This document shows positions 5,221-53,056 of a stretch of 64,000 nt of DNA, piece after piece (the stretch's first letter is position 1; every line of letters starts with the position of its first letter). Made by a program: the position numbers and the translations under genes. This DNA comes from Anastrepha obliqua (lineage: Eukaryota; Arthropoda; Insecta; Diptera; Tephritidae), in assembly GCF_027943255.1 (NCBI RefSeq), contig NC_072895.1:47218001-47282000 (forward strand), written 5' to 3'. The notes below the pieces were generated by a model. The model worked only from the letters and a program-made list of their open reading frames with translations. It was not told where the DNA came from and did no database searches.

Positions 5221-5288
5221 TCAATTGTCGTACTCATTTTCTACTGTTTCAGTACTGTCAAAAGCCTTGACAAATTTCCAGTCCGCCG

Positions 5289-5326
5289 CACAGTGGTTCT
5301 AAATCGACGAAAAGCGGAAACAATTC
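5289..5326 (+). promoter_or_regulatory. Transposon end with heptamer, 22-bp spacer and nonamer
   Basis: Heptamer CACAGTG (5289-5295), 22 nt, then AAACAATTC (5318-5326). The opposite end carries the same heptamer and AAAAAATTC after 12 nt. The presumed role is the binding and cleavage site of the encoded transposase. The heptamer equals the consensus of recombination signal sequences. Confidence 0.7.
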
Positions 5327-5860
5327 AATATCTTGCAAACGGATAGTCCGAATGAGCTGAAAATTGGTACACTGAAAATTCATAAAATGTCTAAGCTAAA
5401 ACTAGAAAAAATTTTGGAAATTCTAAATAGTTTTGAAAAACTACGGAATTGAAAATAATATTTTACAAAAACTTGTCCTTTTTCTATTATGAATAAGAAT
5501 AAAAACGGATTTCAAACTCGTAAAAATAAATTGTTAACCCTTCTAACTGCTTATTTGTCAGGGTTGAAGTGACCCAAAGGTCGTTTAATTGCTAAAAATA
5601 AATAAAACTCAATTGCATTATTGTTTTTTATGTTTTAACTTATGTACTAAATCTAGTCGCAGTAGAAAAGTTTAAAGAAAATCATAATTTCAAAAATTAA
5701 GTTTAATTTCAAATGGTTTCAGTAAATATGGCGTTAATTAGCACTACTAATATTTTTTTGTTTTTGTGTTTTATTTTAAAAAGATTTTTTTATAAAGATA
5801 ATAAAAAATCATTATGAAAAGTTATTATTATTCCTTAAGAAAAAAACGAATATTATTACT

Positions 5861-7397
5861 TTATTCGTTATTGTTAATATCGCGTAACAAGTTTTTTGCC
5901 TCATCACTTAAAATAAGAAATTTCTTTTTTGGAGTCGGTCTTAATTTGTTGATAAAAGGGTCAGATGATAGCAGCATCATGTGCATAACATCTTCATTTG
6001 TTGAAACCCTATCACACTTTCTTGTATGCAGATTCCGATAGCGTTTATAATCCTTGTTTCTACATTCTTGAGCTTCTTCAGAAAGCGCGCCAACAGAAAA
6101 TGTACAGTTTTCAATTATTTGCTTACCATGCAATAATACTTTATGTACTGATGATGGCATGTTATACCATCCATAGTTGGCGACTAACATTTTTGCAGTA
6201 TCATATGCATAATTATCAAATTTACAACTATCCACCGGTTCTGTGCAGGTTATTGCTTCTAAAATCACAGCACATCTATTAATTATTTCTTCTTTAACAC
6301 CTGTTATTTCAGAAGCTAACGCAGGATTGGCAAAAAATCTCCTGGATGTGTTGCCATCATTGGTAGTTCCCTTACCTTGCTTTACCATATCTAATCTAAG
6401 TCCAGTTTTCTCCGCAAATTCATTCTGAATTTGTGCTTTTCGCTTTTCTTTTATTGGACGCGTTTCGGCATTCGTTTTCCAGCACATTATTGGTAAGTTA
6501 TATGCTATATGTAAAATGTATTCCATAAATTTGATACGCGCGTGTAAAGGAGACATACCAAATTTGATAGCTTCAGGATTTATAGGCCGAGCTTTTTTCT
6601 AAGCAATTCATTTGAGATGTGGTTGCGAGACATATGAAGCAAGAAGAAGATGCAGGAGTTTCGGTTACAGCTTGAGCCGTTTTGCCATCCAACATTGTAA
6701 AGAAAAACTCATGCCGAACTTTAAAAACTCGATTTCGTATATCAACAACTGAATCTTGTATTTGTGCGATTTCCGCATCTACTCTATTTTTTTCAGCTCG
6801 AATCTTTTCAGGGGTTTCCTTTGCGAATTGAAATTGGATACATCGACAATATCTCGTAGAAGAAGGACGTTCGTTTTTCCATACTACGTTGTTGTTTATT
6901 CGACAGGACAAATTTAATGGCACTATTGATGTCATAAATACATTAGAATCACATAACTCTTTATCACCAAGTTTTTGGCTGTATTCGCATTGTCCAGACG
7001 CACCATCACAACCCCATTTAGAATACATTATTAATGATTCATCGTCAATTTCAGCGATTTCATCCTCAGTCATCGAATGAAGCAGCCGCTTTGCTGTGTG
7101 GTCTATAAGTTCTTGTAAATCAATAGACGCTGAAGTATCCGTAATTGCCATGCTTTCAGGATAACACCTTTTCTTCGCATCCAAAATCTTACTATAAGGA
7201 GGAAGAATGTCGTGGCCCTCTTTTCTTAAACCTTGTCTCAAAACTTGGTATTGGTATTTCGACATTTCCGTTTGTATAAATATAGCAAGTGCTTTGTCAG
7301 CGTCGATATGGTGCATTTTTGGAGCCTTATCAATGATCTTTTTATACAAAATTTTATAGGAAATCGAAAAATTTTCCATTTCAATAAAGTAATTCAA
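5861..7397 (-). pseudogene. RAG1-like / Transib-type transposase (one frameshift)
   Basis: Two minus-strand frames, 7397-6573 (274 codons) and 6556-5861 (231 codons), form one protein joined near 6590 by a 1-nt frameshift at an A-run; in the shifted frame the text RPINPEAIKFG leads straight into the second part. Matches to the RAG1 core as I know it: first catalytic Asp in WGCDGASG (residue 131); zinc-type CxxC in SSSCFICLATT (253-256); a block of the second part beginning SPLHARIKF; TTNDGNTSRRFF (residues 64-75); SVHKVLLHGKQII (136-148), where RAG1 has FHKTLAHVPEII; and SEEAQECRNKDYKRY, whose Glu (residue 164) aligns with RAG1 Glu962. The second catalytic Asp is not assigned with confidence. 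About 505 residues in total, somewhat short for Transib, so a 5' exon between 7400 and 8400 may exist. It is the catalytic enzyme of the enclosing transposon. Confidence 0.8.
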
Positions 7398-8444
7398 TAA
7401 ATTCTAATTATTTAAATAAGTATACTCGTATAGAATCTACGGAATGTTTGGTTTGTAAGAAGGAGCGAGTATTTTCCTAGTAAGTGCAGTATGTCAATGA
7501 ACTTACACAAAAAAAGATGGCATCAAAGTAAATCCAACTGCATTAATCAGAGACTGAACCCATTACAAAATGTTGTCTAAAAAGCTAAAAATTAATGTCA
7601 GGGTTGAAACTTTGATAAGATAGAAAATATTTATTCATTAACCAGTGCACAATATACTTGTAAAACAAATTATTTAAATGAAATATGAAATTAAGCAAAA
7701 TGCAATTAGAAGAATGTGTTCTTGCTAATTTCGAATAAAGGCAGCTAAATTATATTTGTCGAACTCTCCAAGATAACGCTGCGATTCGCCGGTGGCTACA
7801 CTTTTTAATGACATTTATTTCAGCTCCTTGACTTTATTCTCAAAAACATTTTTTTATTATTCCAAATGCTACTTCGACCAGTATTTGTATTTCATCAACA
7901 AGTGCTTTTACACAGTACATAACACAATTGATTTCATCAAGATTTTGAGCTAATACGAACATTTAAAGACCTCAAACGGCCAAGGTGGCAGCTGGTGGCA
8001 GCTGATTTTACATCTATCTGATTGCGCAGAATGTACTTAATACTAAAATATAGTACTCAGCTTGGAGAAGAGTGGAGCTTTTTTTATAGACCTCCTAATC
8101 GCAAACTCTTTTACATATTTTCTTTCGATTAACTGATTTATGTTCTACTAAGACCATGATAACTGGAGGAACGATATTATATATTCTATCTAAGGTACTA
8201 TCCATACCTAATATAAAAATCATAAAAGATTTTAAATATTGTTCATCCAGCTAAGGAACTTATTAATCAACCTTTTATGAAAAATATTCAGAAAAACCTG
8301 CTGCCAGCAATAGTACAACTTTGGCGATTTTTCCTGCGCAGCACATATCATATAAATAAATGAATTTCTTTTTTTCAGAAACCTCATTAAATTAGCTATT
8401 CAGAAAAAATTTTTTTAAATATTTTTGTTAATTTTCATCATTTG

Positions 8445-8472
8445 GAATTTTTTCCGCCCAGAAACCACTGTG
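8445..8472 (-). promoter_or_regulatory. Transposon end with heptamer, 12-bp spacer and nonamer
   Basis: Reading inward on the minus strand: heptamer CACAGTG (8472-8466), 12 nt (GTTTCTGGGCGG), then AAAAAATTC (8453-8445). The shared inner block GCGGAAA.AATTC ties it to the other end despite the 10-bp spacer difference. Confidence 0.7.
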
Positions 8473-8900
8473 CGCCGTTGGAAGGCCTCGATTGCATGCA
8501 CTTATTATTTGCATGATTTGCTGTGGGTCGGAGGGTGTAGGGACCCAAACTCGTGCCGTCGGTTGAGACGGGATATCTTTTTTATCTACTACCACGAGCT
8601 TTGCTCCCGGGTAGACTTCTCCGATCTTCGCTATTGCTGCTTTATATAGTTTTACCGACCTTTCGTCGTTGCAGGCTATAATTTTAATTTTGCCTTGATA
8701 CCAGCCAGCGTCAGTACAAGATGGTGGCTGACCTGAATTGCTTAGTAGCATTTCCAGAATCACATTAGTTAGAGCAGTCTACAATCATTTCCATTGAGCC
8801 CGGGCAATTCTTCCTTCGGGATCACCCTCATCCAGGACACCAATGATGATGCGATTGCGGGCCACTTCTGCCGATGTTTTATTAGGCGCTATGCCTCAAT

Positions 8901-18819: not shown

Positions 18820-20524
18820 CTATGATCTTATTTTATAATTGAAAAAGTTATGTGTCTTGTTTTGACGCTTATTTATATAAGGATCGGTTTCTCTTATGAG
18901 AAACCAACAGTAGTCACCCATCATAGCGACATCCCAGAATCCTTGATACCGACTTTCAATCATTTTCATTTGCTGGTGAAACCTTTCGCTATGCTCGTCA
19001 CTTTCGTCGCCAAGATTTTGCGGGAAAAAATTTAAATGGGAGTGCATAAAATGAATTTTTAAAGACATATTTACTCCTGAAAGAAAATTAAAAAAGGAAT
19101 TAGATAAATACGTAAGTGACACATTAGCATATAATTTTCTTAGGCTGGGTTAATCTTCCAATTCAGAACAAATTTTGGTCGTTCTTGTTTGTTCGGAGCA
19201 GGGCAATAAATTTAGATTAAGAGCTATATATTCTCATGTAAATTTAAAAATTTGCTTTAAAATTTTTTGTTTAGTTTTAAAGTTAACTGAGAAAACGGTC
19301 TTATATACATATATATATATATTGTATATATAACGGTCTTATATGTGTTTTTTATTTACCCATTTCCGCATTGTTTTTGATTAAATCGTTCTCTATCAGC
19401 TCGAAGGACTTTTGTGTTTGCCTAAAAAAGAAGTAACGACCTTTTCAAAAGAGTCCCACGCCGCTGCCTCCACTGGTGACAATAGTTCTTTGAAATGGGT
19501 ATTGACCATTATTTTCCTTATTTGCGGCCCCACAAAAATCCCTTCCTTTATTTTTGCTTCTGAAATCTGTGGAAAGATTGTTTTCAAATAATGAAAAGCT
19601 TCGCCTTCTTTGTCCAAAGCCTTGACAAAGTTTTTGATAAGGCCGATCTTGATGTGGAGCGGAGTATGAGTATTTTATGTTATCCACCCCAACTTGAAAC
19701 GCGATTCGTTCTGGCCAATCCTTTATGATGTAGTGGTCTTGACGTGCTCGGCTATCTCATTTGCATAGAAAGCAACAGTATTTTGTGTATCCAGGTTGTA
19801 GACCACATAGCTTTCCAACGACTTTTAGATCGGTACATATTTTTCAATCATGTTCTTCGTATTTAATTAATTCAAGCAATTTTTGCATTGTCTCATATGT
19901 TTCCTTCGCATTTACTGCATGCGCGATCGGGATAGATGGCTTTTGGTTGCCAATATGCAATAATACGGCCTTTAAACTTAATTAATTGCCGTCTATGAAC
20001 AATCGCCACTCTTTTGAATCATATGGTTCACCAAACTGTTTAAATAGACCAGCAATGTTTTTGCAATAACAAACACTGTCCTTCTTCGTATAGTACTGGG
20101 AGAATTGTTCGTGACGAGTCATATAATATGTTACCTTAACACCGGATGAAACAAATTTAAATTGTTGCATACGAGAGGCGTGTAGTTTGGCCTTTTCTTT
20201 TGACAATTCCAAATCCCTTATCCAATCATTGAGTTGTGCTTGTGACAAAGGGTTTCTTTCGTTTTCCGTTTGCAATTCAGTACAACATGATGCCGCGTAA
20301 TCAGATACTGCTGTTGACAATGAAACTGGAGCCGAAACTAAAGTTAAATTTGATTCTGGCAATGTAGCTTCCGTTGAATTTAGTTCTGGTAATGACACTG
20401 TAGATACGCTCGCATAGGTTACTTTTCTTGACTTTCCAACCCCAAATACTTTTGTAGTACAAATATAGCAGTCCGTTGAATGGCAAGTTGGTTCCCTCCT
20501 CTTCATTGGTGTAATAAATTTCAT
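18820..20524 (-). pseudogene. Transposase-like gene of the CACTGG element, copy 1
   Basis: Minus strand. N-part 20,524-19,982 has paired cysteines (TDCYICTTK), later LSQAQLNDWIRDLELSKEKA and KEWRLFIDGN. It runs on in frame past a TAA (19,982-19,984) as LSLKAVLLHIGNQKPSIPIA, then DLKVVGKLCGLQPGYTKYCC, with TGA at 19,844-19,846 and 19,757-19,759 where the family has Trp. After a shift come NFVKALDKEGEAFHYLKTIF and SEAKIKEGIFVGPQIR (19,617-19,396). A GT-AG intron fits 19,359-19,077, and the last exon has MSLKIHFMHSHLNFFPQNLG, SERFHQQ and GDYCW (ending 18,820). I know this protein type from many arthropod and cnidarian genomes as a transposase-like protein but cannot name its superfamily with certainty. 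Confidence 0.7.
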
Positions 20525-48708: not shown

Positions 48709-49608
48709 CAGGGTAGGCCATTTAAAGCGGGCCCATTTGTTTCTGAAAAAAAACATTGAAAAAAACATTTTTTTTTGTGTTGATATGAAAAATCATTTAT
48801 TTTGATTCAAGGAGATTTGTTCCAGCTAGTTTTTGAAAATGATATCCTTCAAATGTTTGCCTCTGGCCTTGATGGCCAAATGTGTCCTTTTTTCGGCGTT
48901 TTCCATCGTTTTGGCCAATATTTCGGCCGGTATGGCGGCGATTTCGCGTCGGATATTGTTTTTAAGTTGAGTTAGAGTCCTTGGCTTGTTGATGTATACC
49001 TTGGATTTCAGATAACCCCACAAATAAAAGTCCGGTGGCGTCAAATCTGGTGATCTCGGTGGCCACGGAAAATCACCATTTTTCGAAATCAACCTTCCAG
49101 GGAACAATGGCTTCAAAAAATCGATTGTAGCGCGTGAAGTGTACGGAAACATTTTCAAATCGATGCGAATTATGCGCCTGAGTGTTGTCCTGGCGATGCC
49201 TAATTCCTGAGAACGACGATAACTCGATGTTCGCGGAGCCTCCTCAACACTGGCTCGTACAGCCTCGATATTTTCAGCAGAACGTCGTGTACGTTGTCTG
49301 GATGCGTGGCTGGTATTGCTGAGACTACCGTGGTTAATAAATTTTGCGTATAAACGCTGTAAAGTGCTTTTGGATGGCGCACTTTTAACTTTATTTTTTT
49401 TTTTAAACGCACGTTGAGTTTTCACAATTGAGAAGTTATTTTGGATGTAAAGCTGAATTATTTCAGCGCGTTCTTTTGGAGTGTACTGCTCCATGGTAAA
49501 AATTGTCTTGGACTGACGCTTCCAACGCGCTATGTCATTAGTCGATCTGACGTTCCTGTCAAAAGTTATAGGGTTGCCAGATGGGCCCGCTTTAAATGGC
49601 CTACCCTG
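48709..49608 (-). mobile_element. Mariner-type element (900 bp) with perfect ends
   Basis: TA at 48,707-48,708 and 49,609-49,610. The inverted ends, 28 bp without mismatch, begin CAGGGTAGGCCATTTAAAGC at 48,709 and, reversed, at 49,608. The clean ends and open frame suggest a young copy. The coding part lacks the catalytic centre (see the next entry). Confidence 0.9.
48826..49494 (-). CDS. Mariner-type transposase lacking its catalytic centre, 222 codons open
   Basis: It starts MEQYTPKERAEIIQLYIQNN and has two helix-turn-helix units (residues 1-60, and about 65-115 with SRQRTRRSAENIEAVRASVE). Then LGIARTTLRRIIRIDLKMFP jumps directly to RATIDFLKPLFPGRLIS, WPPRSPDLTPPDFYLWGYLK and the normal C-terminus ending LKDIIFKN. 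In relatives in this window, the region between holds the first and second catalytic Asp (SDEAHF and QQDGATCH). Here it is cut out in frame. The third-Asp block reads SPDLTPPDFYLW. If expressed, the product could bind the element ends but not cut. Confidence 0.7.
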   Translation of the reverse strand: MEQYTPKERAEIIQLYIQNNFSIVKTQRAFKKKNKVKSAPSKSTLQRLYAKFINHGSLSNTSHASRQRTRRSAENIEAVRASVEEAPRTSSYRRSQELGIARTTLRRIIRIDLKMFPYTSRATIDFLKPLFPGRLISKNGDFPWPPRSPDLTPPDFYLWGYLKSKVYINKPRTLTQLKNNIRREIAAIPAEILAKTMENAEKRTHLAIKARGKHLKDIIFKN

Positions 49609-50173: not shown

Positions 50174-53056
50174 CACTGGTTTACAGCCAAAATGCACCAG
50201 AGACGCCGTTATGAAATTCCTATGTAAAATCACCGTCTGATTCCGAAAATCAAGGTTATTTTTTATTCTATGGTAACGTTTTTGAGATATTTACGAATTA
50301 CCGTTATTTCAAAAAAACAAAAAATTGGGCCCACTTAATCATATATATCTCGAAAACGAATTGAGCGATTCCAAAACCGTTTAAAGCTTTTAAAAGGTAA
50401 TAAAATTTCCTATAAACTGTGTGTAAAACACTTTTTGCTAGGCCCTGCAGATTCAAAGATAACGAACTATCATAACGGATTTTTTAAATTTTTTTAGTAA
50501 AGATATAAAAAAAATTGTACTTTGAGAGAAAGGATCTCGAAAACTTTTTACTTTTTCGTGTATTTTTTGTTTTCACTCTAAGCTCTGTTTTATTACAAAA
50601 AAAATAAACTTTGATTAAACAAAATCGATGAACTAATACAAAAGTTACAAGCATTCAAGTAAATATATCCATATAGTAAAACTTAAGTATCCTACAAATA
50701 ATAGCATATGTACTGTATGTATTCTGTCTTAACTCTATGATCTTATTTTATAATTGAAAAAGTTATGTGTCTTGTTTTGACGCTTATTTATATAAGGATC
50801 GGTTTCTCTTATGAGAAACCAACAGTAGTCACCCATCATAGCGACATCCCAGAATCCTTGATACCGACTTTCAATCATTTTCATTTGCTGGTGAAACCTT
50901 TCGCCATGCTCGTCACTTTCGTCGCCAAGATTTTGCGGGAAAAAATTTAAATGGGAGTGCATAAAATGAATTTTTAAAGACATATTTACTCCTGAAAGAA
51001 AATTAAAAAAGGAATTAGATAAATACGTAAGTGACACATTAGCATATAATTTTCTTAGGCTGGGTTAATCTTCCAATTCAGAACAAATTTTGGTCGTTCT
51101 TGTTTGTTCGGAGCAGGGCAATAAATTTAGATTAAGAGCTATATATTCTCATGTAAATTTAAAAATTTGCTTTAACATTTTTTGTTTAGTTTTAAAGTTA
51201 ACTGAGAAAACGGTCTTATATACATATATATATATATTGTATATATAACGGTCTTATATGTGTTTTTTATTTACCCATTTCCGCATTGTTTTTGATTAAA
51301 TCGTTCTCTATCAGCTCGAAGGACTTTTGTGTTTGCCTAAAAAAGAAGTAACGACCTTTTCAAAAGAGTCCCACGCCGCTGCCTCCACTGGTGACAATAG
51401 TTCTTTGAAATGGGTATTGACCATTATTTTCCTTATTTGCGGCCCCACAAAAATCCCTTCCTTTATTTTTGCTTCTGAAATCTGTGGAAAGATTGTTTTC
51501 AAATGATGAAAAGCTTCGCCTTCTTTGTCCAAAGCCTTGACAAAGTTTTTGATAAGGCCGATCTTGATGTGGAGCGGAGTATGAGTATTTTATGTTATCC
51601 ACCCCAACTTGAAACGCGATTCGTTCTGGCCAATCCTTTATGATGTAGTGGTCTTGACGTGCTCGGCTATCTCATTTGCATAGAAAGCAACAGTATTTTG
51701 TGTATCCAGGTTGTAGACCACATAGCTTTCCAACGACTTTTAGATCGGTACATATTTTTCAATCATGTTCTTCGTATTTAATTAATTCAAGCAATTTTTG
51801 CATTGTCTCATATGTTTCCTTCGCATTTACTGCATGCGCGATCGGGATAGATGGCTTTTGGTTGCCAATATGCAATAATACGGCCTTTAAACTTAATTAA
51901 TTGCCGTCTATGAACAATCGCCACTCTTTTGAATCATATGGTTCACCAAACTGTTTAAATAGACCAGCAATGTTTTTGCAATAACAAACACTGTCCTTCT
52001 TCGTATAGTACTGGGAGAATTGTTCGTGACGAGTCATATAATATGTTACCTTAACACCGGATGAAACAAATTTAAATTGTTGCATACGAGAGGCATGTAG
52101 TTTGGCCTTTTCTTTTGACAATTCCAAATCCCTTATCCAATCATTGAGTTGTGCTTGTGACAAAGGGTTTCTTTCGTTTTCCGTTTGCAATTCAGTACAA
52201 CATGATGCCGCGTAATCAGATACTGCTGTTGACAATGAAACTGGAGCCGAAACTAAAGTTAAATTTGATTCTGGCAATGTAGCTTCCGTTGAATTTAGTT
52301 CTGGTAATGACACTGTAGATACGCTCGCATAGGTTACTTTTCTTGACTTTCCAACCCCAAATACTTTTGTAGTACAAATATAGCAGTCCGTTGAATGGCA
52401 AGTTGGTTCCCTCCTCTTCATTGGTGTAATAAATTTCATATGTCGCCTAAATAGATAGTTTAAGAATCATATGTACATATGACAGAATCATATGACAGAA
52501 TCATATGTACATATGCTACTATTTGTAGGGTACTTAAGTTTTACTATATGGATATATTTACTTGAATGCTTGTAACTTTTGTATTAGTTCATCGATTTTG
52601 TTTAATCAAAGTTTATTTTTTTTGTAATAAAACAGAGCTTAGAGTAAAAACAAAAAATACACGAAAAAGTAAAAAGTTTTCGAGATCCTTTCTCTCAAAG
52701 TACAAATTTTTTTATATTCTTACTAAAAAAATTTAAAAAATCCGTTATGATAGTTCGTTATCTTTGAATCTGCAGGGCCTAGCAAAAAGTGTTTTACACA
52801 CAGTTTATAGGAAATTTTATTACCTTTTAAAAGCTTTAAACGGTTTTGGAATCGCTCAATTCGTTTTCGAGATATATATGATTAAGTGGGCCCAATTTTT
52901 TGTTTTTTTGAAATAACGGTAATTCGTAAATATCTCAAAAACGTTACCATAGAATAAAAAATAACCTTGATTTTCGGAATCAGACGGTGATTTTACATAG
53001 GAATTTCATAACGGCGTCTCTGGTGCAGAAAAAAAGTTGAAATTTGTGATCCAGTG
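50174..53056 (-). mobile_element. CACTGG...CCAGTG transposon with long TIRs, copy 2
   Basis: 2883 bp flanked by TTA (50,171-50,173; 53,057-53,059). It differs from the copy at 18,261 by few substitutions, one small rearranged patch near 50,710 and an extra GACAGAATCATAT unit near 52,487-52,499. The flanks are unrelated to those of the first copy, so each arose by transposition, not by duplication of a larger segment. The left insertion site lies in a LINE fragment. Confidence 0.85.
50735..52439 (-). pseudogene. Transposase-like gene of the CACTGG element, copy 2
   Basis: Same structure as 18,820-20,524, shifted by 31,915 bp: N-part 52,439-51,897, middle part to 51,311, probable intron 51,274-50,992, and last exon to 50,735 (MSLKIHFMHSHLNFFPQNLG, then GERFHQQ, where copy 1 has SERFHQQ). 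It carries the same TAA (51,897-51,899), the same two TGA (51,759-51,761; 51,672-51,674) and the same frame change before the intron. The shared lesions mean the parent copy was already broken when it moved. Confidence 0.7.

Follow-up and report, generated by a model that had tools for sequence, protein, structure and literature searches.

A damaged Transib transposon with 12/22-spaced ends in Anastrepha obliqua, a genome with asymmetric and symmetric Transib families side by side

The origin of the 12/23 rule is an open question, and HzTransib from Helicoverpa zea, a Transib for which structures have been solved (PDB 6pqn, 6pqx and related), is described in passages of PMC8289069 as symmetric, as are most Transib families, and as having little or no nonamer. 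Unequal spacers are already in print for these transposons; a figure legend in PMC8355894 lists Transib 5 of Drosophila melanogaster and Transib 2, N1, N2 and N3 of Anopheles gambiae as 12/23 Transibs, the spacers of the type being given there as 12 or 23 ± 1. The element described here, which lies in a 64-kb stretch of DNA from the fly Anastrepha obliqua (the whole of which is called the window), is a new family of that type, termed family A. Kapitonov and Jurka (2005) are said to be the primary source for the published 12/23 Transibs. A first-pass annotation of the window had pointed to the asymmetry as a close parallel to the 12/23 rule outside vertebrates, and the suggestion that such asymmetry is new there is not supported in view of the legend's list; what is added is a single genome in which asymmetric and symmetric Transib families occur side by side, with open transposase frames. 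The search of the literature for Transib together with Anastrepha brought up, among the records it returned, work on Drosophila only.

Going by the legend's description, the published 12/23 Transibs and the Anastrepha element are alike in having a heptamer, a nonamer-like block and unequal spacers; they differ in that family and host are new and that the downstream spacer measures 22 bp in family A and 23 bp in a second family of the same genome (family B). Vertebrate RAG1/RAG2 and its 12/23 recombination signal sequences (RSS) share with family A the heptamer, spacers of 12 and about 23, the A-rich nonamer and a related core fold, but the family-A spacer is 22 rather than 23, the element is autonomously mobile, and in its two copies with an open frame (L011 and L013) the longest frame is the 630-residue transposase, no second long frame being present, although no search aimed at RAG2 or RAG2L was made. 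ProtoRAG and the RAGL elements likewise have CAC ends, 5-bp duplications and a RAG1-like core, as stated in parts of PMC7204232, whereas RAG2L is present there and the spacers of ProtoRAG are given as 27 and 31 in a passage of PMC8355894. HzTransib matches the core fold over family-A residues 145–627 (39% identity) and makes a 5-bp duplication (a passage of PMC1852546), but its ends are described as symmetric; its solved chain aligns from family-A residue 145 (its own residue 21) and seems to be without most of the N-terminal domain. With recently multiplied families of 12/22 (A) and 12/23 (B) layout and open frames beside symmetric ones, the Anastrepha genome lends itself to direct tests of whether unequal spacing is enforced by an enzyme working without RAG2, and of how the A-rich block is read.

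The window element is an internally deleted copy of family A, as seen from comparison of copies, and occupies 3184 bp (5289..8472, minus strand) between perfect CGCCG target-site duplications at 5284..5288 and 8473..8477. In gene orientation the end that precedes the transposase gene reads CACAGTG-12-AAAAAATTC, with heptamer, spacer and nonamer-like block at 8466..8472, 8454..8465 and 8445..8453 (all minus strand), and the downstream end reads CACAGTG-22-AAACAATTC, the corresponding parts lying at 5289..5295, 5296..5317 and 5318..5326 (all plus strand). The ends are thus as the first-pass annotation had described them: both heptamers read CACAGTG, the A-rich nonamers match, the 5-bp duplication is perfect, and one spacer (on the right) has 12 bases and the other (on the left) 22. 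Because GCGG precedes the A-rich block at both ends, the offset of 10 between them holds wherever the nonamer boundaries are placed. The pattern CACAGTGGTT-N{2,24}-GCGGAAAMAATTC, derived from these same ends, occurs at two places in the 64 kb, both of them element ends, and in 0 of 100 shuffles. Beyond the first 10 bases, 12 of 13 bases are common to the two ends at offset 10, a match reached by 10 of 2000 shuffles; in the sister copy L013, with 12-base words, the match at this offset was reached by 30 and 28 of 3000 shuffles in two runs. Within a single element the match is above chance, moderately only, and it is the copies that settle the question. By blastn no further family-A copy was found inside the window, and scans of a viral-contig and a genome-contig collection found no relative.

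Judged from its sequence, the element belongs to the Transib superfamily and encoded a RAG1-core-like transposase: family A has inverted terminal CAC..TG heptamers, GC-rich 5-bp target duplications that are perfect in 27 of 27 copies, and a transposase homologous to the Transib/RAG1 core with its DDE motifs. The first part of the transposase (6573..7379, minus strand) begins at the ATG of MENFSISY, where the open frames in L011 and in L013 start as well, and contains the motifs CDGAS and MLDGK; the second part (5861..6556, minus strand) lies in a different frame and contains LSEEAQE. On alignment to the HzTransib transposase, which matches 7379-6573 at 3.3e-46 and 6556-5861 at 8.3e-60, CDGAS and MLDGK hold the first two catalytic Asp residues and LSEEAQE the catalytic Glu, and with the core fold these matches bear out the Transib-type, RAG1-core-like enzyme proposed in the first pass. 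The second part scores 22.9 bits with Pfam RAG1, under the 25-bit cut-off. A protein search gave 659 homologues; the 120 of them that were listed include LOC129248151 of A. obliqua itself, which is 97% identical across 55% of the query length. Compared with L013, an in-frame deletion of 369 bp, or 123 codons (junction at 7328..7329, minus strand), has removed the N-terminal domain including its GRPxK motif (GRPQKKF), and a deletion of 5 bp (6595..6596, minus strand, the exact place being ambiguous within an A-run) breaks the frame. With its transposase split over two frames the window copy is probably non-autonomous, and the earlier description of the transposon as complete is true of the intact ends alone. 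Among the 27 fetched loci the whole frame is open, for 630 residues from the common ATG, in L011 and L013 and in no other; several further loci keep long stretches of it.

The copy number of family A rests on a genome search, which gave at least 73 matches (the best 40 of 97 candidates were scored), and on one with the right end only, which gave 29, of which 28 were at ≥97% and one at 77%. Together with the window copy the 27 fetched loci (L011–L037) make 28 copies; one, L034, is without a left end, and all 27 that have both ends show the 12/22 layout and a perfect 5-bp duplication. As L014 and L023 have common flanks (97% over 405 bp), these represent 26 insertions. Whether spacing and nonamers are constant between copies was the check put forward in the first pass, and the answer is favourable: no copy has equal spacing, and the upstream end varies by 0, 0 and 1 substitutions in heptamer, spacer and nonamer, the downstream end by 1, 6 and 1. 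The duplication is CGNCG in 22 of the 27 copies; with both strands of the 26 target sites counted, 49 of 52 agree at each of the four outer positions, and in 33 of 52 an A stands just before the duplication. A GC bias of Transib target duplications is on record in a passage of PMC8289069. L047, without a recognisable transposase, also keeps 12/22, its duplication matching at 4 of 5 positions. The 17 near-full-length copies (3457–3562 bp) diverge by 0.25–1.43% (mean 0.86%), the mark of a family that went through a recent burst and is now drifting. Three family-A copies (L036, L015 and L031) carry internal kilobase insertions; L036 also has a frame of 409 residues unlike the transposase.

Because descent could explain family A alone, other Transib families of the genome were examined. 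Family B consists of nine loci (L038–L046), initially weak DNA matches, and a search that required perfect duplications gave both ends in eight; in L038 the 23 end was found and the 5′ end was not. Its ends read CACA(C/G)TG-12-AAAAAAGTC upstream and CACACTG-23-AAAAAAGTA downstream, a 12/23 layout with the same polarity as in family A, so that both families have nonamer-like blocks and unequal spacers within 12 and 23 ± 1, while their transposases are only about 50% identical. A genome search with the homologue P0001 gave at least 87 matches over many families (the best 71 of 1868 candidates were scored); of 12 representative loci fetched (L048–L059), eight yielded both ends (L048, L049, L050, L051, L052, L054, L056 and L059). 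L048 is a full-length family-B element with an open frame of 624 residues and the duplication CGCCG. Ends were not found in L053, L055, L057 and L058: comparison with L052 gave the 5′ end only of L055, those of L057 were absent also from the longer L060 and from L061, and L058 is a family-B copy, 97% identical to L048 over 1.9 kb. Since the end-pair searches required heptamers and matching duplications, they are biased to good ends, and the perfection of the duplications in the nine tabulated elements follows from that demand. Beyond the first ten bases, the best 12-base match between the two ends lies at offset 10 in A, 11 in B and 10 in L051, and was reached by 28, 1 and 35 of 3000 shuffles, respectively; it lies at offset 0 in L050 (58 of 3000), L052 (4), L054, L056 and L059 (0 each), which amount to four symmetric families, as L056 and L059 are near-identical. 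In a second copy of the L051 type the 3′ end was found unchanged (L065) and the 5′ end was absent at its predicted place (L064). The ends of L049 align without gaps to those of L051 (22/30 and 26/40), and the L049 layout recurs in a second insertion (L062/L063), in which the target duplication is CATTG and the upstream heptamer is altered.

What is observed, then, is a transposon family with 12/22 ends, of which the shorter precedes the transposase gene; all 27 fetched copies with both ends share this layout, the 5-bp duplications are usually CGNCG, and open frames occur at other loci. We consider it likely that the window copy is a non-autonomous family-A copy of a cut-and-paste transposon whose ends are paired by transposase supplied in trans from an open frame; by analogy with HzTransib and RAG the enzyme would cleave at the heptamers through a nick followed by a hairpin, and insertion would proceed with a 5-bp stagger. 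Less surely, the 10-bp offset, one helical turn, may be a maintained property that tells the two ends apart and pairs them, and the N-terminal GRPxK segment is a candidate for the part that reads the A-rich block. Several observations weigh against such maintenance. Family-A copies are about 99% alike, so that constancy of spacing proves little and could reflect descent alone; their frames are mostly broken, and the variable sites of the 17 near-full-length copies are spread evenly over codon positions (42/36/37). In the symmetric families an A-run (≥3) stands 24–26 bp away from each of the two heptamers, and A-runs are found at 12 and 22 bp upstream against 22 downstream in A, at 12 and 21 against 23 in B, at 16 and 23 against 26 in L051, and in L049 at 25 only against 26, which reads symmetric; an enzyme reading the distal run alone would see the ends of all four as nearly symmetric, though A-runs are frequent in AT-rich DNA. 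The best match of L049, at offset 10, moreover lacks significance, since 432 of 3000 shuffles reached it in one run and 409 in another, and the L049 layout is, on sequence, best called ambiguous.

These points suit a frozen accident: a single 12/22 founder would have spread in recent times, and its transposase would recognise chiefly the heptamer with the bases next to it, or else an A-run that both ends have at about 22–25. The description of HzTransib as symmetric with scant nonamer (passages of PMC8289069) also speaks for this; against it stand the end matches at offsets of 10 or 11 in A, B and L051, with equal polarity, and the low identity of the A and B transposases, and we hold this explanation possible while leaning away from it. 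That unrelated ends resemble recombination signals by chance is already refuted by perfect duplications at exactly these heptamers in 27 of 27 copies, even though heptamer-like words are common and 10 of 2000 or some 30 of 3000 shuffles attain the match seen within a single element. Hardly more credit is due to a domesticated locus of programmed, V(D)J-like recombination: the RSS-like layout of the ends would fit, but the copies are dispersed with target duplications and their frames decay evenly over codon positions.

How the asymmetric layout came about was approached with a tree of 21 proteins, which is unrooted and by which gain and loss are not distinguishable. Families A and B group with P0001 and P0006 (100/100), L049 and L051 with P0088 (100/100). 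With L049 counted as asymmetric, two changes are required on the best tree, and the share of the 200 bootstrap trees on which one is enough is 0%; without L049 the second asymmetric clade is L051 alone. Forcing the asymmetric families into one clade was not rejected (AU p 0.083), so that a single origin is neither demonstrated nor rejected by the constrained-tree test. An asymmetry that these Transibs inherited from their ancestor and that disappeared in the symmetric families, instead of two gains, agrees with this test and with the unrooted tree, but it has to contend with the separate, supported clades of A+B and L049+L051 and with the two changes of the best tree; we rate it as possible, though less likely than not. 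It is rather improbable, in our estimate, that ends shortened by roughly one turn of the helix, in every case those preceding the transposase, originated two or more times, in A+B and in the L051 lineage, from symmetric ends with an A-run some 24–26 bp from the heptamer. If it did, a 12/22–23 pairing rule without RAG2 would be a state that this enzyme family reaches easily and that was selected repeatedly, rather than a single event in the ancestor of vertebrates.

The candidate reader, the N-terminal segment, contains GRP in 32 of 35 aligned homologues, in register with the AT-hook GGRPR of RAG1. The likeness to the nonamer-binding domain of RAG1 is weak, which speaks against such a role, as in a ranking of 5002 sequences, 5000 of which were shuffles, RAG1 segments took places 14 and 17; likewise a fold search with the 63-residue GRP fragment returned 0 chains. 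The rows of the whole-protein fold search scarcely covered residues before 145, and a direct sequence search with residues 1–150 found no RAG1. Among 12 translated loci GRP is present in nine (L013, L048–L054 and L057) and absent from L055 and L056, both with shorter frames, and from L059, which reads TGRKCTDNF at that place. As a marker of asymmetric families GRP had to be rejected, for the symmetric L050, L052 and L054 carry it, a further point to the disadvantage of the proposed role.

Target duplications differ between lineages: the clade of L049 and L051 (including L062/L063) has CAATG or CATTG, A and B mostly CGNCG; CCANTGG is given in a passage of PMC3276498 as the target motif of D. 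melanogaster hopper and transib2. Copies of several families (L030, L033, L045, L048 and L052) seem to occupy a single CGGCG site within a dispersed repeat that they have in common: the flanks of L030 and L033 are 86% alike, and those of L045, L048 and L052 were assigned by eye, with flanks like GGCTACGGCG and CGGCGGCC. The transposase of the family-B locus L038 is 87–90% identical (piecewise protein comparison) to A0A2A4ITJ8 (P0006) of the moth Heliothis virescens; as A and B share about 50% in the same fly, this suggests horizontal transfer.

The window element itself is inserted in a DUF4780 open frame (8428-8763, minus strand, E 4.4e-12), and when the flanks are joined at one copy of the duplication this frame continues for about 20 codons past the junction. 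Elsewhere in the window an identical protein of 180 residues, without Pfam match, is encoded twice by non-identical DNA some 32 kb apart (19982-20524 and 51897-52439, both minus strand), and a frame at 48826-49494 (minus strand) contains a DUF4817 helix-turn-helix (E 5.6e-12) and is mariner-like by eye.
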